Both the position numbers and the translations under genes were made by a program. 64,000 nt of DNA from Hygrocybe punicea. Lineage: Eukaryota > Basidiomycota > Agaricomycetes > Agaricales > Hygrophoraceae. The notes under the pieces are model-generated. The model made no database searches. It was given only the letters and a program-made list of their open reading frames with translations, and was not told the origin of the DNA. This document shows, in pieces, positions 654-18,018 of this stretch (within the stretch, counting starts at the first letter, position 1; every line of letters starts with the position of its first letter). The stretch covers positions 3,782,001-3,846,000 of the forward strand of contig OY744470.1 of the NCBI GenBank assembly GCA_963556145.1. Direction: 5' to 3'.

Positions 654-2772
654 CAGTGTTGGGGAAGTTTGGTTTGGTCCGGTTTTGGGCCTTTTTGCCC
701 CAAACTGAAACTGAAACAGATGTAAACTGTTTACATCAGTTTGGTTTCGGTCCAAATGTGGGCTAGACCACAAACCATGTGAGCTGGGGGCCCTCACTCC
801 AATCTGACCTCACAAGAGTGTCGCACACATCAATCGATGTGGCCAGCCTCATTACAAGGTGGGATTTGGGATTGGGTGGGCTGCATGGTGTAGATGCGGG
901 TTCAGGGTGGCTTTGGAAGATAAGATCCTAACCTAGGGGTGTCAGCGTGAAAGTGACGGTGGATAATCAGTGTCAGGGATAATAAATGAAGTGGAAATGG
1001 AAGTAAAATAAAGCCGCCGTGTAAAACTGGACAAATAATAACAAACCTGGTGATGAATGGAATGAAAACAGATAAATAACAATGAACCTGACGATGCTGA
1101 TGATGTCGGGTACAGTGGGTCAGGTTGGGTCGGGTTGGAAACAATGAATGAATAATGGAACAACAATAAGGATGATGAAGTGAACCATAAAAATCTAAGG
1201 GTCTACAAGAATGAGCATTTGAAGGGATTAAAGATGATTCTGACTATGAGGAAATGGGGACTAAGGGTATCTCCTTTTTTTTGTATGGTCGTTGGGGACT
1301 GTTTTTATAGTACATGAGTGAGTAGTCTACTTTCGGACATGTCTATTTTGGCCAATGGAAAACTACAAAGAGAAGTTGGAATGGGGTTGTTAAGAGGGTT
1401 GCGATGCGACGAAGACAGGAAAATGGAAGGGAAAACAAATATCCAAGGAAAAGATCTAAAATGTCCTACATATCTCCATAAGGACAAGGGGATGCATATA
1501 TTGGGCAAGTCCGAAGTCGGGAATCGAGTCCGATGAGATCCATCTCCAATAATTGGAACTCTGGGGCTTATGAGGCTGCTGGATTTGGTCTGAAAGCGGC
1601 TGTGACAAAGCGGCATATGTCAGGTCACGTTGGGTCACGTCATGTTGGGTTACGTCAGGTTGGAATGGGAGTCATTTGGAGGTGTTGGGTTCGTCTGGAT
1701 TCATGAGATATTGAGGATATGGACTCAGAGGGACATTGAGTCTCTACAATGGCTCTGTCCAAGCAAAACACACATGTTGAATGTGTGTGTTCCGCCTCGG
1801 CTGTTGTTGATTAGGTCTGGTGGTGGTGGTGGTGATGCCCTGATGCGTCAGACACATTGTGCATGTGATGATGGGCATATTGGACCCATGTTGGTCCTGT
1901 ATTGTTTGTTTTCGGTGGACATGTGGTGGTGGTGGCATACAAGCCCCTTTGTGTGGGTGTCCTGACATGTCATGTGTGTTGTACATGTGATGACAGGTGG
2001 GTTGACCCTGCATTGGCTGCATTGTTGTTTTGTGGTGGTGATGGTGGTGGTGGTGGTGGTGGTGTTGCATGGTGGTGATGATGGTGGTGGTGCTGTGGTG
2101 CTGTGTTCTGTTATATACAAATAAAATCAATAAAAAAATCAACCAAAAAAACATACCACAAAGGAGCAGGGGTGGATGCACCACCCCCCGCTGCTTGTTC
2201 CATCTTGTTGACTCCCACTCCACCCTGTTCACGTTCATTTGCATGCACATGCATCTTGGACACAATGTTGTTGGTGTCCAATGTTGCCATTGTGGCCATT
2301 GTGGTGGCAATTGTTGTTGTCATTGTTGTTGTTGTCATGGTGGTGGCCATGGTTGTGGTTGTGGTGGTGGTGGCTGTGGTGGCCGTTGATGGTAACTTAC
2401 TGTAAGTGTGAGTTAGTGTTGAATAAATAAAATAAATAAAATAAAATGTACAAGGGCAGCAGGGAGTACCCTGCCACCCATTTTGTCCACCTCAGGTGCT
2501 CCATCATCCTCATTTGGTGTATGTTGTGGGCGTTATTGGTGGTTGCAGAAGATACTTTGGTGATTTTTGAAGTCAGCCAAATGGCTGACTTGGGACTGTT
2601 GGTTTGCAGTTCAAACTCAGTTTGAAACTGTTTTGGCCCACAGCCAAATCCCCAAACCGGAGACCAAACCATTCGGTCTCAGCCAAAATTTCCCACACCA
2701 AAACTGAAACCAGCGGTTTCGGTTTGGTCTAAACAGGTTTGGAGCAGTCTGAGACTGAACTTTCGCAAACAG
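654..2772. mobile_element. Decayed hAT-type element, family II, holding LTR D1
   Basis: It begins CAGTGTTGGGGAAGTTTGGT and ends near 2772 with a decayed match to the other terminus. The complete copy at 51155-52439 has the same order: terminal pyrimidine/GGTTT words, a palindrome (here 807-860), GT-rich triplets and a GCACCACCC word. The copy is split by LTR D1 (889-1748). No 8-bp duplication survives. Confidence 0.6.
889..1748. repeat. Solo LTR-like repeat, family D (copy D1)
   Basis: It is 860 bp long, starts TGTAGATGCGGG and ends GAGTCTCTACA, so it has TG...CA ends. ATGG is present on both sides, which fits a 4-bp target duplication. Other copies are at 3645-17266, 34048-34917 (inverted) and 50579-53061 (inverted). 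The hAT-type sequence resumes directly after 1748, showing that D1 landed inside it. Confidence 0.7.
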
Positions 2773-3644
2773 AGGCTCCACCATGCCTTGATCTCCACCC
2801 AGCCAGTGTACATCAAGTCCAGCACCTCAGTCATCCAAGGTGCTTGTTACCCAATGTTGTTGAGAGTGATGAAGAGGTTTCAGATGGTGAGGTCCAACCA
2901 AAGCACTGTATGTATCACCCAATTGAAATTTATTTTACTCATTCTCATTGTCACTACAGCCAAAAAGAAATGAGCCACATTATGAAATGCAACTGCCACC
3001 AATCACGATGGTCTTTTGATGGATGTGGATGTACAGGACATCAGCATCGAGGATGTGGATGCACCTCCATGTGAAGACAGGCAACACAATGTTGATCAGT
3101 TTTTTCAGCTGGCTGTGCCAAAGGAAATGAACAGCAAGTAGAAGAAATACAGGGTGTGCAAGTTATGTGCATGAGTAATCATGTTCATTGATACTATTTG
3201 GTACAAGAAATTGGTATAATAGTAACCAAAAAATGCTGGTCAATGAGGTGACAACTTTACAGCACCATTTGGAAGTGGCTCATTTGGTGAGTGAGATGCA
3301 CCTGACAAGCTTGCACAGTTTCTCATGTCAATTCAGGGAAAATACAGAAATTGGGCCAAGACTGCCCAATTTGAATCAAAGTTACCTGGTGACATCAAAA
3401 AATGTGAAGCAGCTCTGAGCAGATTGTGCACACCCTGCTTCAGGAGAAGAAACTGTCCAAGTGTGTCCTCCCTTACTTGGAGAAACTTTTTTGTTAAGCT
3501 GCAGTTGAATGGCTGGTTGTGGTGGATCAGGTGTGCAAGGATGAATACTGTTTTGCCTGCTGTCTATTGATTAATTTCATGTTGTAGCCTATCCAAGCCC
3601 TTGAACATCGGAAGTTCCAGGAGATGGTTGATGTTGCTTCTCAG
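2773..3644 (+). pseudogene. Relic of a hAT transposase N-terminal region
   Basis: In shifting frames the plus strand reads segments such as QFFQLAVPKEMN, TTLQHHLEVAH, NWAKTAQFESKLPGD and QALEHRKFQEMVDVASQ. These resemble the BED-finger and following region of basidiomycete hAT transposases, as I remember the family. Several stops and frame changes interrupt it. The reading stops where LTR D2 begins at 3645, so D2 probably inserted into the relic. No DDE or dimerisation domain is visible nearby. Confidence 0.55.
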
Positions 3645-3830
3645 TGTAGATGTGGGTTTTGGGTGGCTGCAGAACATAAATCCTAACCAGAGGGTGTCAG
3701 TGTAGAAGTGACAGTTGATAACCAGTGTCAGGGATAGTGGTAAAAAAGTAGTAAAAGAAATGGAAAGTGAAGCTGCCATATAAAACTAAGAAAATGGACA
3801 AATAATGATAATCCGGACTGAAAATGGGTA

Positions 3831-4446
3831 AGATAGGGTGCATCCATACTCCATGAATGTCACGTGATAAAGTGTGACAAACACAGATATCCATAATTAC
3901 ATTGTCAATAATACATATATAGGAAATGTGTTACCAACAAAGCTTTTATAATTGTAAATAAGGGAATGCCTTGGTCTTACATTTTGGGTCCAAGCCCCTG
4001 AGACAGAGTAATTTTGATTGACTGTACTAGTGGACTTTGAAAATATGGCCAGACCAACAAAACGGCATTACTCCCTCCTCCAGAATCTTGGTGACTTTGC
4101 TAGGAAGAAAAGAAAAGTAAATGATGAGGATAAAGAAAATGTGGGTCTTTACCCCCCCTTCCCCCCTTTTCAAGAAAATAATAATAACATTGAAACAGAT
4201 CAAAGAAGTGCCTATTAAAAGAATTCTTTGAAGGTCACCAACACTATCATAAGGGTCTCAATGGGAGACAAGCAGCATGGGCAACTAAGAAATACAGGGG
4301 ACATCGAATGTTCCATGAGAGTCTTATGAAAGACCTTGAGGAGGCCAGCATGGTTGAAACTCAGTAGCTTAAATTTAATCTCCGCCATAGTAGTCACATA
4401 CTGTCATGATCACATGACATACCTGGAGTATGGATGTGCCCTATCT
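3831..4446. mobile_element. TA-flanked DNA transposon (616 bp)
   Basis: Inverted termini both begin AGATAGGG and share the word CATCCATACTCC; the match extends imperfectly for about 38 bp. TA is present on each side (3829-3830 and 4447-4448) and once at the corresponding place in D1. This fits Tc1/mariner-type target use, although the terminal bases are unusual. An internal frame (4018-4218) has a basic lysine/arginine patch but no recognisable transposase domain, so the element is probably non-autonomous. Confidence 0.65.
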
Positions 4447-4500
4447 TAAATAACAATGAACATGATGATGCCAACAATGTCAGGTCAGGTCAGGTCGGAA

Positions 4501-4640
4501 CATCAGGAAAAACACTTTGGCTCTCACATTATCCTGGGAATATTCCATTTTCCCAGGGTGTCAGAGAGTGCCACAGAGTGTCACAGAGTGTCACAGAGCA
4601 TTGGAAAGAAACCTCAGAGTCACAGAAACTTGTAACCCGT
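4501..4640. repeat. Left TIR and subterminal repeats of Plavaka element
   Basis: The 17-bp terminus is followed by a zone with repeated CACAGAGTGT words (4565-4600). Subterminal repeats of this kind bind the transposase in CACTA-like elements; the role here is inferred. The transposase stop codon (4648) lies just inside. Confidence 0.75.
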
Positions 4641-4647
4641 ATTATTA

Positions 4648-7600
4648 CTACCAAATAGTTTTGTATGAATACATATTCTGCCAGTTGTTCACCAAGAAAG
4701 TCCCACATTCATCTAAAACATTATCAGTGGTCCATGTGATATCTGCAGACCTTCTGAACAGAGGCATTAACATGCAACTCTGCCTAATGCTTGTTAAAGG
4801 AATAATAGAACCGGAACATTGACCATCTGCATGGTACAGAGGCTTGAGAGTGTACATGTTGTGATAAGGTTCTGCTGTTGGTTTCAGTCCAGTGTACCAT
4901 TCAACATATGTCAAAGGGGTTTTCAGCCAGATTACTGGTGACAGTCCCAGGCAAGAGTCTAGCGATGATGGCAATGTGAAAATCACCCTCACACGTCCGA
5001 TGCGTGTTCCTGACATAAAAAATGTCAACATGAGACTGCAAGCTTACCAGGAAGCTTACCTTCAAGACCGGTGGATTCTGCAACATCAGTGTGCAGAACT
5101 ATGACATTGTCAAAGTGGCCTGCTCTTTTCTTGAAGGCAGGAGCAGCCTTTATAACATCACATTCCTCTTCACCATCTTCTAGACTTGGAGGGTGAAGTT
5201 TCAAAGTGTGATAGACATCTAACCTTGCAAAAGGTAGCATGTTCAAAGATGCCACTCTGAGGGTTGTTGGATTACGCATGATGCGGTTTAAATAGTCCTT
5301 GAGGGCAGTTGAAAATCCTGGAGCATGATGGCGCTCTGCAATGACTTTGATCAATTGACGTGGTTGAGTAGGATATTTAGGAAGTGATATCAGGTTACCG
5401 GTGGCATTGTGAGATAGTGATTTGGAAGGAGGACTAGTGGGACACTGTGAATCCATCCAGGAGATGTAGTGTTGGAATGTGAACATCTTCTCCTGGTGAG
5501 TAAGCCAGTTGATCATTTGTGGAAACTCGTCATGTTGGTTGGAGGCGCGCCATCCGTCCTTGGCTAAATAGATGTGAAGTCGTTCAAACAATTCAGTGTT
5601 GTAATTGTCAGTGGTACCTAGAAACTTGATGGACTGGATGTAGTGGTGCAAGGAATGGAACTTAGGGATGTTAAGATCATCACGTATGCCGGTTTCAATG
5701 AAATAAGTCTTGTGTAGGTTAAATATGTTCAGGGCATCCTGCATGTAACCCAGGGTGACGTCATCATGTGTGCTGTACTGGGCAAGGTAAATGAAGTCGA
5801 GAAGTGCACGACATGTCACAATGGCCTTCTTGGGCAGAACACCCACGAGACAACCCAGGAGAATCTTAGCCATATTCTTCCTCTCCATGCCAGATATTTG
5901 AGAGAGAGCAGAGATACCATTCTTAAAGTGATGCAGTCCATATGCAGGTGGAAGGCAGTGAATATGGTGGTCTAGCTTGTCAGGACTGATGGTGCGCTGA
6001 CACCAGTTTGTTAGATGCTTGAAGACACCTTGGTAGATCTGATGAAGAACATCAGGTGTAACGGCCAGATTGATGTCTGTGTGAGGAAATCCGTCCCAGA
6101 AAGGCCTGTAAACACTTCCAGATACCTCCCTGTCCATGCAGTACTTGTGGAACTGTGATGCTGTAGCTGATGTCCTCTTTGCCTCATCTATTACTCCTAA
6201 TGTCCACTTCTGAGTCCGATTCGGGTGTGTGAATGTATCCTGCAGCTTGTCTGCTGGACACTGACATTTAGGGCATGTTCCGTACTTGGAACAAGTAACA
6301 AGGCATTGTTCTGGGTAGTCCGTGACATACGACGCTAGGACAGGATGGACTTTACGAATAGAACTGTCACCACTGGTCATCTCGATACCTGACTCTCCTA
6401 AGTCTTTCAGGGGTGCCATGATCAATCGCATCGACTTGTGGAATAAACATTGATTTCTTGCTCGATGTTCTTGTTTAGTCAACTTGTCATGGCAAATTTT
6501 GTCCACCGAAAGATAACCCACTAGAACTGCAGCATGCTGAGAAGGCTTTCTTCGTACAGTTTTGGGTAGATTTCCCAAAGTGAGATAGACAGGATATGCA
6601 GACTTGCCACCTGTGAACTGAGTAAGTTGTGTTTTGTCCGTTGCGAGTATCACAGGTGCTAGAGTTGCGCTGACAGGGAGACGTGTCTGATAGGAAGCGT
6701 GAGACCAATTTCAGAGAGTTGAGAGTGGAGAATGTATCATTGCACACCTGGATTATGTGCCACCAAGATCCTGTCCACATCTCAGAATAGACTCTGTTTG
6801 AGCGACTGACGTCTGAATATACTTTCTTTGGGACGTAGACCATACTCTGCGATAAGGTTGGATCACCCCATAGACAACGTATTGCCTCAATCACGTCTCT
6901 GAACCTTACTACATGCTTCTCCATAGGACAATCCTTGAAGGACAGATGCTTGGTTTGCCACTTTCCCACTCTGTGGGGAATGTCATCGATGATCTTATGT
7001 AGAGCATGTGTATTCTGGAATGAAAGCCCTAACTTCTGTCTCACCTGAGGGATCCATGTCAGAACATCAGTGTCGACAGAGAATCCAGAAATCTTACCCC
7101 AGGAATGGACAGAAATCGGTCAAATGTATTTTTTCCTGGACCTTCTTTAATAACCCAATCTGCAACGCGCCAGTCAAGCTCTGATGTGAAAGGATAGAAT
7201 GAGTTTGGCGCAGGGGTATCGTCTCCAATAGTGATGTCACCCTCCCCATCTCGTCTGCTTCCGAACAGGTTTCTCCAGCATTCATGTAGATTTTCGTTCA
7301 TCTGTATCACACACACTGCTCCTTGGAATGGGTCTTCTACCCGACTATCGTCTACATCATCTAGAACCCTGTGCAGCAGATGGCGTGCAGTGGATGGTCC
7401 AGGCCCTGCTTCACCAATCTGGACTTCGGGTAACATAGCAAGTGTGGCTGATGGCATAGGAATGAAGTCGAACAGATCATCGTCATCTGCCATATCATCT
7501 ATTGCGTCCACGACGTATTCATCCATGTGGCTCCTCTGATCTTCCATTTGGTCTGATTGTCCATCGCCAATGCAAAGATCTGAAATCAAGGCTTCTCCAC

Positions 7601-7787
7601 CCTCTCCATCCAAATCTAAGGGGGAGAGCTGTGCCAACTTTCCACGTCGATACCAGCAGCATGAGCATGCTGTTGTGAGGTGGGTGGTGCAGCCCTTCTT
7701 AGTCTTGAAGCTTTTCATGCAGACAGGGCAAGAGAGCTCATCCTGGAGATCCATGGTAGCATTGTTGCAGCGTTCAGTCAAAAGCAA
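4648..7787 (-). CDS. Plavaka transposase, four exons, apparently intact
   Basis: Exons are 7787-7098, 7044-6748, 6686-5060 and 5009-4648, with GT-AG introns that restore one frame of 991 residues. A C2H2 finger (CPVCMKSF...H, residues about 19-40) opens the protein. Next come an acidic linker, the Plavaka signature MWTGSWWHIIQ (about 320) and the catalytic-core block LATDKTQLTQFTGGKSAYP, with the likely first catalytic Asp at 346. A Cys cluster (CSKYGTCPKCQCP) and the conserved ERLHIYLAKDGWRA block follow, and the C-terminus ends NWQNMYSYKTIW. These blocks in this order are typical of the basidiomycete Plavaka group, a CACTA-related RNase H-fold transposase. The start at 7787 is the first Met before the finger. 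No internal stop is seen, so the element may still be able to move itself. Confidence 0.88.
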
Positions 7788-7900
7788 AATATGAAGATAA
7801 CCAGGATAAGATTGCTATAAATGAATAATACTGTGTCACATGGGTCTCTGAGATAAGCCCAAGGAGGAATGGATTTGTGAGAGATCACTGCATGCGTTAC

Positions 7901-7901
7901 G

Positions 7902-7934
<33 letters not shown>

Positions 7935-7936
7935 TA
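7901..7936. repeat. Hexanucleotide repeat (AACCAG)n
   Basis: Five to six tandem AACCAG units lie between the transposase and kinase-like genes. This is an ordinary microsatellite and not the fungal telomere repeat. Confidence 0.8.
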
Positions 7937-8040
7937 AGTTTCACAAGTTGAGTCACTAGTCTCAGTATTGTCCTAGCCAGTGTTTAAAAGTAAGCTCCAT
8001 GAGAGTAAGGCGGTCTGTAGCGCTGAACCTGAGTTTAGAA

Positions 8041-8102
8041 CTGACTTCCCAAAAAGGACCACATTTTATCATCGTAAAAAGTACACCTTTTCAGGAAGTC
8101 AG
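8041..8102. other. 62-bp imperfect palindrome (copy 1)
   Basis: The outer arms CTGACTTCC and GGAAGTCAG are perfect inverted repeats. The inner part has TCCCAAAAAGG facing an A-rich CACCTTTT arm. The core closely matches the palindrome at 10185-10242. It lies just past the 3' end of the kinase-like gene. Confidence 0.7.
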
Positions 8103-8208
8103 CACTGGTCCAGCTGATCTCTCAAAAAGTTATCTTTCACAACATGCCTTATCATTCACGTCATACGAAACAAAAAGAAATATTGACTCCACCGCCATTG
8201 TCTCGCAT

Positions 8209-9891
8209 TCACGGGATCTGCAATGTCTGCCTCATATCCTGAAGCTCAGGACATTCACTAACACCAGGGCACCCATGGAGGGCGGCATGAGAGAAATCGA
8301 GAACTTGGACTACACCAGTTTGAGATAAAACTACATTGTCTGGACATAAGTCTAGGTGACTTACTCCAGCCTGATGGAGGGATAGTATAGCTGCCCACAG
8401 ATTGAACCTAGGAACATAGCATAAATGAAATGGCTTGCAGAGGATGTGAATGATGTACTGCTGGGCACGTGAAAGCATAGAGAATGAGCTCAATGATTTA
8501 CCTGCATCACGCATCAGGAGCACTTGAAAACCCCTCCCCACGTACAGACCATAGAAAGCCAGTATCACAGTGCCCTGAAGCGCCGCGAGCACCGCATAGA
8601 TTTTGGCTTCGTGACGCAGCCGTGCTTTGGATTGGGTGTTAATGGCAACTTTTCCAACAACGTTGTCAGCGCAGTGATGATTGAACCACCCTCGAAATAC
8701 ATTCCCCACCGATACTCTGTCCAGAAACGTAGTCAGAAGAAGTTCATGGTATGACGAAATCGCGTCAGTCGGAGATTTGGAGTGTTTCAGGCGTGTTTGA
8801 ATGGACTTGTGGAAGATCGCTAGTTGCATCAGCCCCTGAATCGCAACTGATGACAGGAGTGCTATTAAGGAGTGGAAAGTAAAGGACTGGCATTCTGGAT
8901 CAACCACTTCCAGGCGCCTCAACTCGTACGTGATGACTTCGCAGTGATCGAGATCGAAAGTCAGACATAAAGTGTCTGCCTATAAACTGGAGTCTCTCAT
9001 CTGAAAACTCAGAGATGCAACTGCAACTCACCTGCGAGGGTAAAGTCAGACCGGAAAAAAAGGTTGAAAGGGTGTCACCACTGGGAGCCGGGGTGACGTT
9101 GGAACCTTGCGTTGCCTGATGAGTACGGCCTAATGGCTTAACTAATTTAACCATGGGAAGATGAATATCTGGGGGGGGTGTCCATGATAGTACTGCCCGA
9201 CTGTAAAAGGCAGAAAACGATTAACGGCATAAAGGGCGTCATTGAGTCTAGGAGGTGAAGAATGTCTGAGCATAGGAGGCCATGAAGTGGCAAGCCAGGG
9301 ACAGGGCAAAGTGAGAAGAGCATGTAGCTATCTCCTCCGAAGAGGAGTGCATAAGGGATGGTAGTGGGACCTGACAGCATCGCTATTCCCATCTATCAGA
9401 GGTGATGATGAGTGGGGGGATTACCACTGAGATTCAGTGCCCACCTTAAAGATTATCAATCTGTGCCCTGTCTCACTAGGGCTCAGCTCCAAAACCACTC
9501 CATTTCTGCCCAGACGTAAGATACCCTCCACGTGATGTGTGAACGCTGTCCAGCTCTTGAACTCCACATGTAGCTGTGGATCAGTGTCACAGTGTGGCTG
9601 GTATGTTCCATCCAGGATCTGATTGAAAGCAGCAATTCTAGTAGTAGGCTTGGGCTGGGTGGGATTTGCGTCAACCTCCTCTACTGCACAACATATAGGG
9701 TTGAAGGCACGCTGGAAAAGGAGGCTAGACGACGATTCGTGGTCTAGGAGGTAATTCCGGAGGGACCTCTCCAGGCCAGCAATGGCTTGAACCAGTACGT
9801 TGGAGGGGGCTAGATGTCTGCCTGGGGCACTTTGAAGGTAGGCATGCAATGAAGCCAGCATATGATTCGGTAAAGAATGATCATGGACCAT
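8209..9891 (-). CDS. Protein kinase-like gene (divergent), Plavaka cargo
   Basis: The first exon (9891-9425) encodes about 155 residues with no recognised domain. One or two middle exons (about 9390-8930) are not resolved with confidence. The C-terminal part (from about 8922) reads an N-lobe-like stretch, RLRHEAKIYAVLAAL, then across a GT-AG intron (about 8410-8458) the catalytic loop HLDLCPDNVV and the metal-site block VLDFSHA, and ends near CPELQDMRQTL. The usual HRD and DFG motifs are thus HLD and DFS, so activity is uncertain. The DFSHA...CPEL ending is common in kinase-like proteins found next to transposons in Agaricomycetes, as I recall. It is the only cargo gene whose exon structure I could not close. 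Confidence 0.62.
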
Positions 9892-10184
9892 GAAAGCCGG
9901 TCATCCTTCCTGATTTGGGGGTGGTATGCTGATGTTGTATGGGGTGGTGGAAGTCGATGTCGTGATCTTGGTGAATTGATGCTCTGAGGGTAGGGGGAAG
10001 ATCATGCTAGGGACGTATGTCTCCAACGTAGCCATCCCTCTTGCTATGGAGATACGTACATAAGTTTGCAATGCGCCCAATCTTTTTGCTTTGGTTCTTA
10101 CCTACTGGCGTTCCCCTCCTTATACTTGCTGTGATGAAGGGACATTCAGTTAAGTATACCGGTAGCGTGGCCAAAGATTCACGT

Positions 10185-10242
10185 GGTGTCCCAAAAAGGT
10201 GCACTTTTTTTCGCCGTAAAACATGCACCTTTTTGGGACACC
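10185..10242. other. 58-bp near-perfect palindrome (copy 2)
   Basis: The arms GGTGTCCCAAAAAGGTGCA and TGCACCTTTTTGGGACACC are exact reverse complements around a short T/CG-rich loop. It lies between the divergently transcribed kinase-like gene (-) and the gene starting at 10264 (+), only 22 bp before that ATG. It matches the core of the palindrome at 8041-8102. A role as a shared regulatory site or RNA hairpin is inference. Confidence 0.8.
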
Positions 10243-10263
10243 TCGCTGCAGCGCGTACTTACT

Positions 10264-12328
10264 ATGGACGTTTCTCCAACAGAGCTCATGGACCTGCTTC
10301 ATTTCTTCCATGAACGCACTGACAGTCTTCTGCCAGGAATATTTGCAATATACCAGAAACTGGAATCATTATATTCACCAACGTATCCGACGTACGCTAC
10401 TCCTTTAGTCACCCTTCAACCTGAAATCCTGCCGCACTTTTCTGTTGCTGCCATGGCAGATAGGCCCTGTCTCAATATTAACCAGCAGGGATTTGGCCAT
10501 GGCACTGCTCACATCGTTGCAGATAAGGTGAGAGTTTCCATCCCTGGGACATCTGACTGTTCACATGTTCAGCTCCACTCCTTCTCACAGACTGCTAACA
10601 TTGATACGGATGCGGCTTATTCCGTTGTTGTGAGTCCTTTTGGGTGGAAGTCATTCCTTTGGCGTCTGATGCTTCCCACATCCAGGTCACCGGAGATGCT
10701 AACACCAAAGCCGTATACGATGCACCGGAAGACTCACCTGCACGGCTACCTGGCTGCTATATCAATGTAAACAGTTTGGAGCTACGCCATTCAAACCGTA
10801 TCGATAGGCGGAAAGACTCAAATCCTTATGGTGCCACCACAGCATCCGCAGCATCCGCAGTTAACCGGAATGGTGAGTGCAACCGAGGGGGTACGAAGCA
10901 CCGGAAAAAGACCAAGAGCAAAGGGAAGCAGCAAAAGGGTTGGGAGGTCACAGATCAGCTGGTTCACATTTTGGGAGCTCGTGCCTCCGAGACCATCTCC
11001 AATCTATCACAAGGTGCGATCAGCAACTTGTCAAACACATTCACACGGTCCTGGATCCAGTCCATGTGAGCTTTGGTGGCAGGTGGTATTTGGGAGGGCG
11101 AGAACACGGCTTTCATCATGGATTCTCTGCAGTCACTCGTCCTTCAATGCAAATGTAGCCTGGAAATGGCTGTGGGGCTCGAGTTTATTACAATGATTAA
11201 TATGGTACAGTTAGCTGCGAAAACAGACTAGTGAGTAGCCCTTACTATAGGTGCTTGCATATACTCATGAGCTTCCCCCAGCATCATGCAGACGAAAGGG
11301 CTTAAGTCTATGGGTAACGTCTTCCATCATTACGTCTCAGGAATGGACGGAGGGCCATCTTTATCAACATTTCGCACGTGGGTAGGCATCGGCACAAAGT
11401 TCGCTTCAATTGCAGGCGCAGGTGAGTAGTCCCTCTGCCTATCATCAGACTTTGAAGCCGCCACGTAGCTGACGTCACCTCGCAGGATCTATCTATTGTC
11501 TAATGATTATAGCAGCCAAAAACCAAAGGGCTGCAATTTCCCAGATGAAGTTCGACGAAATTTACACCATATCAAATGCGCTTCGCTGGCCTGACCCAGG
11601 TAAGTAGCGGTGGATCTGCTCCTCTTTCGACTCTTTTCAGGTCTTTCATCAGATAGTGATGCAGGGAAGGATATTTGCCTACGCCTTATTCCACTCATCG
11701 ACTACCTGTGCCGTAACATCCACTTAAGACTTTCCACAATGTTCCCTCATAGTCTGCTAAATGATACCGATGTGATGGGAGACATTGATTGTTCTGACTT
11801 GGATATGTCAGATAAAATTTTCGACAGCATCCAAAAGAAGTAAGTGATCAGTTTAACCCCTTGATCAAATATTGACCTGAATGCGATAGCTCTTTCATGT
11901 CGCTCACGTGGAACCGTGAAATCTGGGCACAATGCCTAGAGCCTCAGGTGGGGCCATCGGCTGACCCAGCACCTCTCCATGTAATGAATCAGAATCTACT
12001 CTTGTCATATGTATCGTGGGGATCGGTTCCTTCTGAACATCCACTGTCACCCTTCTCTGATTCTGACAGTGACGACCCTAACCCTCAAAATCCACTCAAC
12101 AGTGACTCTGACAACTTGCAGGCACCTCTGCTGATGGATGAGTTTCATTTTCCTGATGACCAGGAGCCCAACTATGTGGTCCTGAACACATGCTTCAATC
12201 AACATGCTAGACAGAACTTAGCGGTTCCGTACCCCAGGGAAAAGGGTGCTAGGAAACTTTATACAGATGAGCAAAGAAGCTATGCCGCTGCAGCCCAGGT
12301 TCCCCAGGATAGTGCTGATTTTGCATGA
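10264..12328 (+). CDS. 577-residue protein of unknown function, Plavaka cargo
   Basis: Seven exons join in frame: 10264-10629, 10686-11013, 11083-11230, 11282-11421, 11486-11599, 11641-11839 and 11890-12328, all with GT-AG introns. No known domain is recognised. Visible features are a basic Lys-rich stretch near residue 210 (KHRKKTKSKGKQQK), a hydrophobic glycine-rich segment near 310-335 (VGIGTKFASIAGAGS) that could be a membrane or buried helix, and an acidic Ser/Asp-rich stretch (FSDSDSDDPN) in the last exon. Its stop (TGA 12326-12328) directly precedes the ATG of the oxygenase gene, so an alternatively spliced fusion with that gene is possible. The frame runs uninterrupted through seven exons, which argues for a real gene. 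Confidence 0.7.
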
Positions 12329-13403
12329 ATGGTAAGGCTTTGAAGTCATCACAAAGTACTGGAATTGATCGTACCTTTAGATGTCTGAGCCATACGACGA
12401 CAATGGGGTGAAGGGAGCCAATAACTATGTTTTGATGGATGAAAAGATATTTGAGGGGTCAGCTTAGCCTTTCTTTCCATGTTATCACCTGCTGATGTCT
12501 ACCTGCTGACAGTAAGGAAGTTTGTATCAACGGCTCAGACAGTTCACTTGGTGTGTTTGTCTGGGGTGATATGCCCCAGGACATGCGTAAGTCTTTGGAA
12601 TGTAACATTCGGAATGCCTTGCTTGTCGAGAGCAGCCCTTCCCTGGTTCATGTGGATAGTTCTGCTGCTTCACTTGGGTTTAAGTTTCCCTCCATTCATC
12701 TAGACATGTACATTCGCAACAGCCCACACGTAGGTGAACCATGTGTGGACAATTACTAATCTTACTGATGCCTTTGAATAGGGCGATGGTGCACCATCTG
12801 ACGTGCACCCTTACCTGCTATGCCGCAAAGGGGCCTCTAAGACGAATTACTATCAACTCATTCCTAGAGTCTCTAAGGAGCTCATGGAACATACTAGAGA
12901 ATATACCAACCTTTGCAATTCCTTCGAAGAGTTTTTTTGGTGGGTAGAAGAGAAGGTTAATTTCATTGTCACTTTATTTTCCGGCTCTGGGAGTACTCAT
13001 GTGATTCTATTAGCTGACTGAACGACTTCCTGAAATTTATGAAGATCTTTCCATGTTTGTGGACGCTCTTCCTGGCAAGGAAGCTTCTCCCTCTCATCCA
13101 TTCAGCGGTTTTGTCCTTAACATCAACGCTATCACACGCTGTCACAGGGACATGAAGGATCGCCATGTCTGTCTGGTTTTGGTTATAGGAGATCACGTCG
13201 GTGGTGAGCTTTGTTTACAGGAACTGGGTTTGGTGGTGCGCTTGCGCAACAGCGATGTTGTGGTCTTTCCCTCTGGTAAAATCACTCACTTCAATCTCCA
13301 CTATCAGGGTGTCAGGGCATCTATAGTTCTACATTCAGACAATGCAGGGCAGAGTTGGGTAGATAATCATAATCATTGGATGGGACACGATTACATGTAT
13401 TGA
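12329..13403 (+). CDS. TET/JBP-like 2-oxoglutarate/Fe(II) oxygenase, Plavaka cargo
   Basis: Five exons (12329-12331, 12381-12457, 12513-12729, 12782-12955, 13014-13403) give 286 residues. If the single-codon first exon is not real, translation could start at 12381, which is also an in-frame ATG. The C-terminal half has the double-stranded beta-helix pattern of this superfamily: H201-R-D203 (in TRCHRDMKD) as the metal pair, GGELCLQE, the second metal His249 (in GKITHFN) and Arg258 (in GVRASIVLHSD) to hold 2-oxoglutarate. All four key residues are present, so activity is plausible. This resembles the fungal oxygenases that Iyer and colleagues (2014) linked to transposons and grouped with TET/JBP, which oxidise methylated pyrimidines. 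The substrate is inferred, and a prolyl-hydroxylase-like member cannot be excluded by eye. Confidence 0.72.
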
Positions 13404-13482
13404 TAAATTTATTTATGCCAATTGACTTTTTATTTGTTTGTCCTTGGTGTGTTTAGGTTGACTTTCCAACTTTCATTACCTC

Positions 13483-15240
13483 ATGACAAGGTCGACATCC
13501 AAATGCGGGAAGCTTTCAGCTTCTTCACACGGCGTCAAGGCAACGGAGCCTGTTTTGAAGCCCAAGCCTAAACCAAAACCCAAACCCAAACCAAAATCAA
13601 AGCCTTGTGCCAACGATGAATCTCAGGATGACTCTGCAATTGATTCTTCAAGTATCTCAATTGATAACCTGTCTACTGCTGACTTGAAGCTCTGGAAGCA
13701 GTTTCAGGCTAAGATGAAGTCACAATCAGCTGCTCAGTTGCAGGAGGAAGAAGATGCATGTGCATTCACATTTATCACATTTTTACTTATATTTATTAAC
13801 AACTATATGGAGTGGTACACAAGTGCAATGCTGAGATGATGGCTGAGGAGGATGATAGTGAGGATGAGGAAGGGGATAGAGTTCCTATGGGCAAGAAGCA
13901 GAAGTTAAATGTAGTCCTGGACACCGATGAGGAAGAGGAGAGAGTTCCTACAGGCAAGAAGCATAAGTTAAATCCAGTCCTGGACACTGATGAGGAAGAC
14001 CTGCATGCCGTTCTGGGTGACGAGCCACTGGGTGATGATGATGACTTCCACCGTTGGTCTACTCCTTTTCAAATTACTGCATGTTAACCCTTCTTCCAGA
14101 TGATGAGGATGTGAATGAGCAGAATGGATGCCTGGATGAGACCTTGACAGGAAACGGTGTAGGTAATCTCTTCATGATAGGGAGCATAGTACTGCTAATG
14201 GTCAATTATAGATTGCTGTTACCCTTGAAGATGAAGACCAGGGCCAGACATCCAGGAGGGGTACATGCTCCCAGTGGCACCTGGCAACACGTACCACTAC
14301 ATCTCAGCTGGGGCACTCTGAAAAGCTAACCAAGAACAATTTCACACCCTGCAGAATGTGTCTAACAAATGCAGGCAAATCTATGGCAAGAGAGAAGATT
14401 GCTTTGACCCATGCATTCCTGAAGGACAAGGATGCCTTCATTTGGGAATCCATTCAACAAGCTGTGAAGGATAGTCAGGCACTTCATGAAGCTTTGGAAA
14501 AGGCACGTGATGATCCAGATTATCAGGATAATTGGATGGAATACATAGGTTTTCAGGTTAGGTTCTAGGCTGTTGAGCTAACACCGTGATCAGATTGGTT
14601 ACACCATAACCGGTTTACGGGGTGACCTCAAGGCAAAGGCCAAAGCCGGCATTGTTGGCCACTTTGGCATTCCAGGTAACATGTCAAAGAGTGAAATAGA
14701 GAATGCGATACGTTGGGTTTTGGATGGGTCGAAGTTCACACGTACTGAAGTCAACATGGAGGCAAGTTTTAATACGCTTTCAATGAGAGAAGACTGATGG
14801 GCCATTCTCACAAAACAGAAATGAGAAGTGGTAAATCCAGAGCCATTTGGTCATCCTATAATTGGCGACATCATCAGAACTCAGTGGTGTGGAAAGGGTA
14901 AGGCTGATATCCAAGCATATATGGCCATGGTCGCTCAGAAGAAGATACCAGAGGCTGTAATCCTAGCAGTTGTTACTGCGGTACGTGTTTTTGTCACTTC
15001 ACATGATGTGTACAACTGGGTAACCTTTACCCTAGGTTGAGAATGCATTGATGGAGTGGGCGAGCGGGGAGTATATCCACTTACAATTCAGCCATGAAGT
15101 CACTAGTTCAAGGTAAAGTGATGAAACTACTGATATGCTCATCATCAAGCTACATGGGGAACTTTGAAGAAGAAGTCTCCTATGTGGATGGAGAAGAAGA
15201 TGAAGACCTTGTTTCAGACTTTCATGTAGAAAGGGTTTAA
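13483..15240 (+). CDS. DUF6532-domain protein, Plavaka cargo
   Basis: Eight exons (13483-13759, 13813-14016, 14100-14158, 14212-14556, 14594-14765, 14826-14980, 15036-15112, 15150-15240) join to 459 residues without a stop. The N-terminus is basic, with a KPKP repeat; a middle part is acidic, with two near-copies of GKKxKLNxVLDTDEE. From about residue 210 it resembles DUF6532: ARE-K-IALTHAFLKD, the GLRGDLKAKAKAG block, FGHPIIGDIIRTQW and a C-terminal ALMEWASGEYIHLQFSHE helix. DUF6532 proteins are abundant in mushroom genomes and have no known function. Exon 6 needs an AG at 14825; other acceptors introduce a stop. The charged, low-complexity N-terminus would suit a nuclear, nucleic-acid-binding role, but that is a guess. 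Confidence 0.72.
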
Positions 15241-15489
15241 CCAGGAGGATGTTTCTGATGCACATCTCCACAGGAAAAACTCCAAATACGCTGCAATTCA
15301 TGCTCAAGACACAGAAAACAGGGATCTCGATGACGTTGATTTTGCTCAGCTGGAACAATCAGCATTGGTATAGAAGTGCAGTGGCTGCTCAGAAGAGTTC
15401 TCCCTCCTTTGCGCTTTATTTAGAAGTCTCTTTCCACCATCCTTGCATTTAATATATGCAAATTTAGATGACTTATATCTGGGTGAATC

Positions 15490-15702
15490 AGAGTAAATCA
15501 GAGTAAATAAAAGCAGAAAAACCAGGCTTTCAGAGCACTCTGTACTGCTCAAACACTGCTCTAAAGTGCTCTCAGAGCAGAGCCTCAAGCAGGTTGCTCT
15601 CAGAGCCACTCAGAGTGCTCTGGCAGCTTTGGCGCTTTCCTCACTCTGAGCAGCTCTGAGACTCTCTCAGAGTGCCTCAGAGCATAAGTGTTTTTCCTGA
15701 TG
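15490..15702. repeat. Right subterminal repeats and TIR of Plavaka element
   Basis: At least ten copies of CTCAGAG/GCTCT-type words in both directions lie between 15530 and 15680, ending in the inverted terminus at 15686-15702. They mirror the CACAGAGTGT array at the left end. Confidence 0.75.
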
Positions 15703-15882
15703 AAACAATGAATGAATGATAGGAACTAAGAGAAGGTCAATGAGGACAACTATGAAAGTCTAAGAGTTTACAAGGACAAGCATTTGAAGGGATTAAAAGA
15801 CGCTTCTGAGTGTAGGAAAATGGGGACTAAGGGTATCTTTTTTTGTACAGTCGTCGGGGTGGTCACATCGGGTCATGTCACG

Positions 15883-17266: not shown

Positions 17267-18018
17267 TCTCCAGGATACTTTAAATAAAGACCATCCTTGG
17301 TCAATACTGCGTGGACTCGGGACTTCGATGTGTGAGATAAAGCCAACGTGGTGGTTGTGGAATTGGGTTTGACCATCAGGAAATCAACCCAGATATGAGA
17401 TAGTTATATATGCCTTGAGCTGACCCACAATCATTAACATTGTTTGACATTATGCTCACACTTAGATCTAGGTAGAGATGGCATGGTTGTGATGGTAGAA
17501 GTCAATCAAATTAGTAGAATGATATTTGATGTGCTATAGATCAACAACACATGTCTTTGAACATCATTCCTCCAAGAAAAGTGAGGTCATGGTGGGGTTA
17601 AAGGAATCTCACCATATATAGCAGAGTGATAGAATCTGAACTTTGCTTAAATGAAAGTCATAACTGTGCCATAGATCAACAAGTTGTGTCCTTGAATATC
17701 ATTCCTCCAAGAAAAGGAATCCCACCCTATATAGCAGAGTGGTAGAATCTGAACTTTGCTTGAATAAAAGTCATAATAGCCAAAACAATAGAGTTATTGT
17801 CCATTTGCTACCACAACAACAGTATGGTACCATAGCTCCTTACCACACAGAAATCCTATTCTGCTCATGTAGCAACTAATGCATCATATTGTCATGGCTC
17901 ATATACTGATGATAGGGGATGTAGCATTGACTTCATGTTGGTAGGGGGTCAGCAATATTCTCATATTAAACTCTAGGAATAGCTGAAATAGAGGGCAAAA
18001 CATATATTTGGTGAACAT
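17267..18018. other. Retroelement-derived stretch with an imperfect direct repeat
   Basis: No gene can be supported. Just right of LTR D2 is a word GACCATCCTTGGTC that recurs in similar form beside LTR A1 (about 38630) and LTR C1 (about 44500), so it is probably a conserved internal-end sequence of these LTR families. Between about 17530 and 17775 a roughly 120-bp segment (containing ATTCCTCCAAGAAAAG and TATATAGCAGAGTG) is present twice. Confidence 0.45.

Follow-up and report, generated by a model that had tools for sequence, protein, structure and literature searches.

A PlavakaB-Like Transposon with a DUF6532 Companion Gene and a Kinase–Oxygenase Pair That Recurs in a Tc1/mariner-Type Element

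Gene Content and Boundaries of the Element

The DNA analyzed here is a stretch of 64,000 nucleotides, hereafter the window, in contig C36 of a 92.2-Mb host genome of 42 contigs. Positions 4501 to 15702 of the window are a genuine, well-bounded Plavaka element, a DNA transposon in which a transposase and a DUF6532 gene are joined by a divergent kinase gene and a TET/JBP-like oxygenase gene. The same kinase–oxygenase pair is found in an unrelated transposon of this genome. Three transposon families are distinguished below: family A (the window element and its copies of about 95% identity), family B (a diverged Plavaka relative) and family C (the second, Tc1/mariner-type carrier). The features of the locus are as follows, in window coordinates.

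4499–4500: left copy of the 2-bp target-site duplication (AA)
4501–15702: Plavaka element, 11,202 positions
4501–4517, forward strand: left terminal inverted repeat, CATCAGGAAAAACACTT
4648–7754, reverse strand: Plavaka transposase (exons 7754–7098, 7044–6748, 6686–5060 and 5009–4648; 980 amino acids)
8041–8101: imperfect dyad, a relative of the palindrome at 10185–10242, upstream of the transposase gene (taken from an alignment, not counted genome-wide)
8209–10035, reverse strand: kinase gene (exons 10035–9445, 9392–9032, 8979–8848 and 8805–8209; about 561 amino acids in an open relative)
10185–10242: near-perfect palindrome of 58 bp in the divergent kinase/oxygenase promoter
10264–13403, forward strand: TET/JBP-like 2-oxoglutarate (2OG)-Fe(II) oxygenase gene (12-exon model; about 815 amino acids in an open relative)
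13483–15229, forward strand: DUF6532 gene (approximate exon model)
15686–15702, reverse strand: right terminal inverted repeat
15703–15704: right copy of the 2-bp target-site duplication (AA)

With up to two mismatches allowed, the 17-bp end CATCAGGAAAAACACTT occurs in the window only at 4501–4517 (forward) and 15686–15702 (reverse), against 0.01 occurrences on average in shuffled sequence. The matched inverted ends from which the original prediction started are thus exact and form the sole pair in the window. Its other structural observation, a host repeat that resumes on both sides, was borne out as well: when the flanks are joined with one AA, the rebuilt empty site aligns across the junction with a second copy of that repeat at about 1073–1297, with a 5-base gap at the junction. 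Since the joined flanks align with another copy of the host repeat, the insertion, its ends and the AA duplication are real.

PlavakaB elements are described as having ends of the form 5'-CATCA..TGATG-3' and a target-site duplication of 2 or 3 bp (PMC12730594). The sequence CATCAGGAAAAACACTT has this form at both ends, the duplication is AA in the window and 2 bp in all eight other family A copies with both ends visible, and the Plavaka transposase profile (PF18759) is matched with an E-value of 6.6e-85 (285.6 bits, cut-off 26.3). The ends and duplication of the element hence fit PlavakaB, an assignment made from these features rather than from a transposase tree. Taken jointly with the account of its gene content given below, we consider it probable that this is a full-length DNA transposon of PlavakaB-like type, one whose own transposase moves it, in a host that its relatives would place among the agaricomycetes.

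Gene models were built with splicing guided by conservation between diverged families. Comparative splicing against two of these leaves four genes in the element instead of the five originally counted. The transposase, the TET/JBP-like exon, the kinase-like gene and the DUF6532 gene of that count are all present, but the separate protein of 577 residues is not needed: the tracts upstream of the oxygenase exon merge into a single oxygenase gene, and separate genes in this region were set aside. The open reading frame (ORF) at 9421–9900 is part of exon 1 of the kinase. The transposase is intact, as had been proposed, with a frame that is open over all four exons, without a stop or frame change, and with two ORFs that match Pfam Plavaka (E 6.6e-85 and 6.1e-21). 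Its N-terminal Cys/His motif resembles a zinc finger, with a Pfam match below cut-off. The kinase gene of the window is broken by a stop (9903–9901) and a 1-nt insertion in exon 2, and the oxygenase gene by stops at 11067–11069 and 12326–12328. The catalytic HRD...H...R of the oxygenase lies in its last exon (13014–13403); the first exons are the least certain part of the model, as the family B and C models begin later. Scored by stops, frame changes and large inserts, with splice sites left unscored, the oxygenase model is open in four of 11 copies (C1:4.58 Mb, C34:1.30 Mb, C35:4.35 Mb and C35:6.21 Mb), the last of which served to build it. The family B model of DUF6532 matches PF20149 with an E-value of 1.1e-34, and the window's own exons match this profile in the genome search (C36:3796603–3796992).

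Copies and Families in the Host Genome

Genome-wide, the terminal inverted repeat is found 74 times in forward and 73 times in reverse orientation with at most one mismatch, compared to 0 and 0 for the reversed-pattern control. Besides the window element, ten further copies were retrieved. They align with the window element at about 95% identity over 10,922–11,127 of its 11,202 positions. All eight copies with both ends in view carry the terminal repeat pair and a 2-bp duplication (CT, CT, AA, TG, CA, CT, TC and TC); in the remaining two, one end lies beyond the retrieved stretch or was not found. Family B is known from one copy (L029+L030). Its left end is as in family A and its right end differs at 2 of 17 positions; the duplication is TA, and the genes follow the order of family A. 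Protein identity between families A and B amounts to 72% for the transposase, 57% for the kinase, 63% for the oxygenase and 55% for DUF6532.

Grouping the typed protein matches of transposase, kinase, oxygenase and DUF6532 across the genome gave 87 clusters. All four genes are present, in identical order, in 22 of them; the others hold kinase and oxygenase only (n = 14), transposase only (n = 25), oxygenase only (n = 10), kinase and transposase (n = 7), DUF6532 and oxygenase (n = 6) or other contents (n = 3). One of the four-gene clusters is a family A element merged with an adjoining family C element, and some partial clusters look like a single element split by nested insertions (e.g., C1:4968–4985 kb). 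The original prediction had named the outcome that would undo it, namely that copies of the terminal repeat pair never enclose these genes, in which case kinase, oxygenase and DUF6532 would be no more than chance neighbors of, or insertions in, a single Plavaka copy. This explanation is refuted by the ten copies that align along the element, by the 22 ordered four-gene clusters, and by family B, which keeps the gene order at 72% transposase identity; we give it practically no credence.

The ratio of nonsynonymous to synonymous substitution rates (dN/dS; Nei–Gojobori, NG86) is 0.09 for the transposase and 0.14 for DUF6532 between families A and B, and 0.19–0.22 for the kinase and 0.07–0.16 for the oxygenase over the A–B, A–C and B–C comparisons, values of which only the direction is safe, as dS between families (1.2–3.9) is near saturation. 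This direction points to purifying selection on the four proteins during the lifetime of these families.

A family A element at C35:3238–3252 kb has an oxygenase exon that is only 82% identical to that of the window, and it adjoins a family C element at C35:3257–3267 kb. Recombination between families A and C is possible for these neighbors.

The Same Gene Pair in a Tc1/mariner-Type Element

The 14 kinase–oxygenase clusters, together with the one merged with a family A element, constitute family C (about 15 copies). Two copies on contig C34 share 99.7% identity across 8,748 bp, and the second of these delimits a unit of about 9.95 kb with inverted terminal repeats of 412–418 bp. For nine additional copies, the right end could be located in 9/9 and the left end in 6/9 stretches, with differing flanks. 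The 32 genome matches of the terminal repeat, counted by eye, resolve into 12 inverted pairs around family C and eight unpaired matches. Eleven of the pairs are spaced at roughly 9–11 kb and one at 50 kb. The element in the latter seems to have its ends at C34:119527 and C34:170007; its oxygenase side lies at 128 kb, the remaining transposase at 169 kb, and a large nested insertion or a rearrangement would account for this spacing. No consistent target-site duplication occurs outside TTATTG..CAATAA in the seven copies for which both ends are visible (one chance-like TT match), and TA is found inside both ends.

Family C encodes the kinase (reverse strand), the oxygenase (forward strand), an extra gene without Pfam match and a Tc1/mariner-type DDE transposase. 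The extra gene lies beside the kinase (L031, about 2586–4503, reverse strand) and has acidic and basic tracts. The transposase is supported at the level of exons, two exon ORFs matching DDE_3 with 28.8 and 35.0 bits (cut-off 28.6) and a third with an E-value of 0.015. Family C shares DDE_3 with other Tc1/mariner elements of the genome, as its transposase has many more distant relatives of at most 82% identity among the best 150 of 456 candidates. What sets it apart is that all 13 full-length transposase-exon matches of at least 90% identity adjoin a family C oxygenase of the pair, 0.9–1.0 kb away.

The block that can be aligned between family C and the window runs from the kinase end to the oxygenase end (about 8213–13401; 66–74% identity in pieces), limits that may fall short of the true borders, given that diverged untranslated parts would be invisible in such an alignment. 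We read the genes added to the Plavaka element as this divergent pair, the kinase and the oxygenase, arranged head-to-head. Because the pair recurs in a second transposon type, it is regarded as a cassette. The last-exon tree, computed without seven A2 rows, the long-branch rows P0015, P0016 and P0021, and P0023 and P0024, groups families A and C against B and the sequences of other fungi (support 100/98), and the kinase tree agrees weakly (88/85). A five-row tree of full-length oxygenases with a Mycena outgroup prefers A with B (82/81). These trees thus disagree on which families are closest, and with it on the direction of cassette transfer. Judged from sequence, the presence of the same pair in two unrelated transposons suggests a portable kit against DNA-methylation silencing.

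The pair could also serve the host, as a host regulator carried by transposons and kept for host benefit. The low dN/dS would agree with this, as would a chromosomal relative of the kinase at C36:1357–1359 kb without a found oxygenase. Nonetheless, all kinase–oxygenase clusters found belong to the mobile families A, B or C (the ten oxygenase-only clusters were not typed to these), and we hold a host function to be improbable.

Identity of the Oxygenase and the Kinase

The oxygenase matches Pfam Tet_JBP (PF12851) with an E-value of 4.3e-8 but with 33.0 bits (curated cut-off 34.9), and PF12851 appears in the precomputed annotation of 12 out of 24 database relatives. In its 2-His-1-carboxylate motif, H104 and D106 of HxD are invariant in all 27 aligned rows, including the window protein, and the distal H152 and R161 are kept in at least 90% of these rows. 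The HxE by which PE-type TETs replace HxD is thus found in none of the 27. AG-type TETs carry Gly/Ser and Asp at the positions of Gly331 and Asp337 of CcTET (PMC12730594). When these positions are counted from the first His, without structural alignment, Asp stands at +5 (D109) in all 27 rows and Val at +11 in the window protein, which would place the oxygenase outside this type too.

A structure model was taken from relative P0012 rather than from the window protein (mean pLDDT 59, core 74–88). Its best fold matches in Foldseek are 2OG-Fe(II) oxygenases, with NgTET1, CcTET and CMD1 in the first ten rows; for NgTET1 the E-value is 1.3e-3 and the root-mean-square deviation 1.3 over 75 columns. 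The AlphaFold model of a full-length Mycena relative was left unused (mean pLDDT 40). Against the sequences of the Protein Data Bank (PDB), the oxygenase profile retrieved CMD1 alone, at a non-significant E-value of 1.5, and the single-sequence search only four unrelated chains with E-values of 0.19 or worse.

The kinase matches Pfam Pkinase (PF00069) with an E-value of 9.8e-7 but with 28.9 bits (cut-off 31.7). The motifs HLDLRPDN and DFS were read by eye, and a protein search with the kinase returned none of 6818 candidates at an E-value of 0.001. The chromosomal relative mentioned above (L062:4026–5748; no oxygenase match found beside it) is 34–37% identical in both parts and a possible source of the cassette kinase.

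An oxygenase designated family D (45% identity, HxD, no kinase match nearby) is located at C33:3440500–3457499 (L035, L054), and the oxygenase search gave five further genome loci at 44–47% identity. Helitron genes (Helitron_like_N, PIF1) lie about 5–13 kb downstream of the family D oxygenase in opposite orientation; no boundaries were established, and a Helitron passenger was set aside as an explanation.

DUF6532 as a Likely Companion of Plavaka

A DUF6532 match occurs within 8 kb of 19 of the 98 other Plavaka loci, compared to a mean of 1.2 and a maximum of 6 in 1000 trials of random placement (13 contigs, the extents of two being approximate). Conversely, of the 48 DUF6532 loci that belong to neither family A nor family B, 18 lie within 8 kb of such a Plavaka locus. 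Around all 98 of these other Plavaka loci, the surrounding 20 kb lack an oxygenase match. For the 29 transposase loci of families A and B, DUF6532 is found within 8 kb in two and within 13 kb in 20; the former number is low because the gene sits at the far end of the element. We therefore prefer to see in DUF6532 a companion of several Plavaka lineages, with a role in the element that sequence leaves unassigned. A place among the oxidation cargo, as first proposed, was set aside in view of its genome-wide co-location with TET-free Plavaka loci. From the proposed cargo, DUF6532 and the 577-residue protein consequently drop out, and the oxygenase remains as part of a unit bounded by terminal repeats and shared with an open transposase.

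The Promoter Palindrome

The arm of the 58-bp palindrome (20 bp, at most two mismatches) is present 32 times in forward and 32 times in reverse orientation in the genome (reversed-pattern control: 0 and 0). Each of the 32 palindromes lies 311–377 bp from a kinase first-exon match of family A or C, and of the 33 typed matches of this kind all but one have a palindrome (32/33). In family B it has diverged, with changes in both arms. Shorter non-autonomous elements (1.8–2.1 kb) with the same ends were sampled as well; 7/7 match family A or B at both ends and at a diverged palindrome, and five of the seven have a 2–3 bp target-site duplication. The other matches to A and B, among at most eight listed per pair, are confined to the second dyad, to ends aligned with ends, and to short stretches of sequence flanking the B copy. 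Two subtypes of these elements differ over about 1 kb and have the ends and the palindrome region in common. The retention of the palindrome in elements of this kind is suggestive of a cis function, which is not proof of one.

The palindrome might instead be a tiny inserted hairpin element, or a remnant of another transposon's ends, without function. Its arms do resemble terminal inverted repeats, and families A and C have its loop in opposite orientations. On the other hand, the 20-bp arm, with up to two mismatches allowed, was found nowhere else in the 92 Mb, it accompanies nearly every typed family A or C kinase, and its arms have been kept where the surrounding A–C DNA is just 66–74% identical. 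A functionless insertion is therefore a tentative option, one we consider rather unlikely.

CpG Decay and the Proposed Role of the Cassette

Across the 11 copies, with the direction of change taken from the majority base, CpG has become TpG or CpA in 1040 of 9314 cells, compared to 182 of 47,524 cells at other C (CA 85/17,965; CC 62/13,449; CT 35/16,110). In individual copies the excess ranges from 17.7- to 50.2-fold, and decay is strongest in the window copy (201/720). As CpG-to-TpG changes are about 30 times as frequent as other C-to-T changes, the copies were methylated. Relative to the other copies, the kinase stop and the second oxygenase stop of the window are C-to-T changes at CpG. Five matches to C5-methyltransferase exons are found in the genome.

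CpG methylation would be the silencing mark on these elements. The oxygenase most likely would oxidize 5-methylcytosine (5mC) on transposon DNA, to 5-hydroxymethylcytosine (5hmC) and beyond, and so might keep CpG methylation from fully silencing the transposase genes. The kinase would probably modulate the oxidation, with either the oxygenase itself or a protein of silencing or chromatin as its target, and the palindrome is probably a binding site that ties the regulation or targeting of the cassette to the elements. Overall, a PlavakaB-like element with a DUF6532 companion and a gained kinase–oxygenase anti-silencing cassette with a palindromic promoter site is the account that we favor, with somewhat better than even confidence. 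The erasure of methylation by cargo genes, as originally suggested, is plausible in this form, for copies that carry a strong signature of CpG decay.

Several observations weigh against this account. The copies are heavily CpG-decayed despite the oxygenase, such that protection is at best partial, in trans or stage-limited, and in the window copy itself both the kinase frame and the oxygenase frame are disrupted. Both the oxygenase and the kinase fall just below the curated Pfam cut-offs. The structure models are weak (mean pLDDT 40 for the full-length Mycena relative and 59 for P0012), and VIA-align puts GGCX and cupin chains on a par with NgTET1. No DUF6532 was found near 79 of the 98 other Plavaka loci, so it accompanies part of Plavaka only. 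Finally, the non-autonomous elements with the dyad are mutually related, and they may have kept the palindrome by inheritance.

The oxygenase could also aid the transposon by acting on a substrate other than 5mC (e.g., N6-methyladenine (6mA), thymine or RNA). Its substrate is not predictable from its sequence, the residues at the CcTET positions Gly331 and Asp337 (+5 and +11 after the first His, PMC12730594) are Asp and Val in the window protein, and CMD1, the one PDB sequence that the profile retrieved (at a non-significant E-value of 1.5), makes a different product (PMC12730594). Yet decay in the copies is strongly CpG-specific, a pattern pointing to 5mC as the mark that matters on them, and we deem another substrate unlikely. 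More speculative is a two-step DNA-modification cassette, conceived by analogy with phage base hypermodification: the oxygenase would hydroxylate 5mC and the kinase phosphorylate the hydroxymethyl group, giving a base new to eukaryotes by which silencing proteins would be blocked. The palindrome, also present in members without genes, would be the address site that guides the two enzymes to the elements, and the unit would move between transposon superfamilies. Such a scheme seems to us very improbable. In the favored account, the kinase would be a regulator of oxidation.

Comparison with Known TET-Bearing Transposons

TET-bearing Plavaka elements are already published: Kojima 2025 (PMC12730594) describes them in Agaricus bisporus and Gymnopus confluens, all of PlavakaB, and cites earlier reports that implied Plavaka–TET links in five fungi. 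The element in the window has in common with them a Plavaka transposase, CATCA..TGATG ends, 2–3 bp duplications and an internal TET/JBP-like oxygenase (PMC12730594). The TETs of those two species are of the PE type, with HxE, whereas the window oxygenase has HxD (PMC12730594). Kojima 2025 further argues that transposon TETs serve the escape from methylation silencing (PMC12730594). The ten TET-carrying transposon lineages in its abstract do not include Tc1/mariner; in its main text DUF6532 is absent, 'mariner' occurs 0 times, and 'kinase' occurs twice, on IS3EU (PMC12730594).

In these IS3EU elements, from rust fungi, a TET gene sits between a transposase and a kinase gene (PMC12730594). By their description they are nonetheless set apart, as they belong to another transposon superfamily and carry an alpha-kinase, compared to the Pkinase match (below cut-off) of the cassette (PMC12730594). 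Kyakuja/KDZ elements with AG-type TETs and CcTET of Coprinopsis cinerea, a fold match of the P0012 model, are likewise cases of a transposon-borne TET/JBP oxygenase in mushrooms. They have another class of transposase, and the AG hallmark residues after HxD, as given in the published description, are unmatched in the window oxygenase. For the kinase–oxygenase pair and the DUF6532–Plavaka link no description was found in the literature, as covered by titles and the starts of abstracts, with most subscription papers outside the search.

New here are the four-gene content, the kinase–oxygenase pair in a Plavaka and a Tc1/mariner-type element, the cassette-specific palindrome, DUF6532 as a companion, an HxD oxygenase in Plavaka, and the CpG decay of the copies. 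Plavaka thereby gains an HxD oxygenase, and the TET carriers published so far are joined by a Tc1/mariner-type element. Transposon-borne TET genes were known, and the two-gene unit addresses the question whether they act alone or in a defined kit. With its own promoter site, and common to two transposon superfamilies in one genome, this unit separates a 'core' from a 'cassette'. The anti-silencing idea can thereby be tested on a single kinase, a single oxygenase and a single site of 58 bp.

Neighboring Repeats

Two further repeat structures lie outside the element. Immediately to its left, in the same host repeat, a unit of 620 bp with 40-nt inverted ends (88%) spans window positions 3829–4448. 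To its right, two interleaved repeat pairs (64 and 52 nt, 87–92%) are found at 17530–17776.

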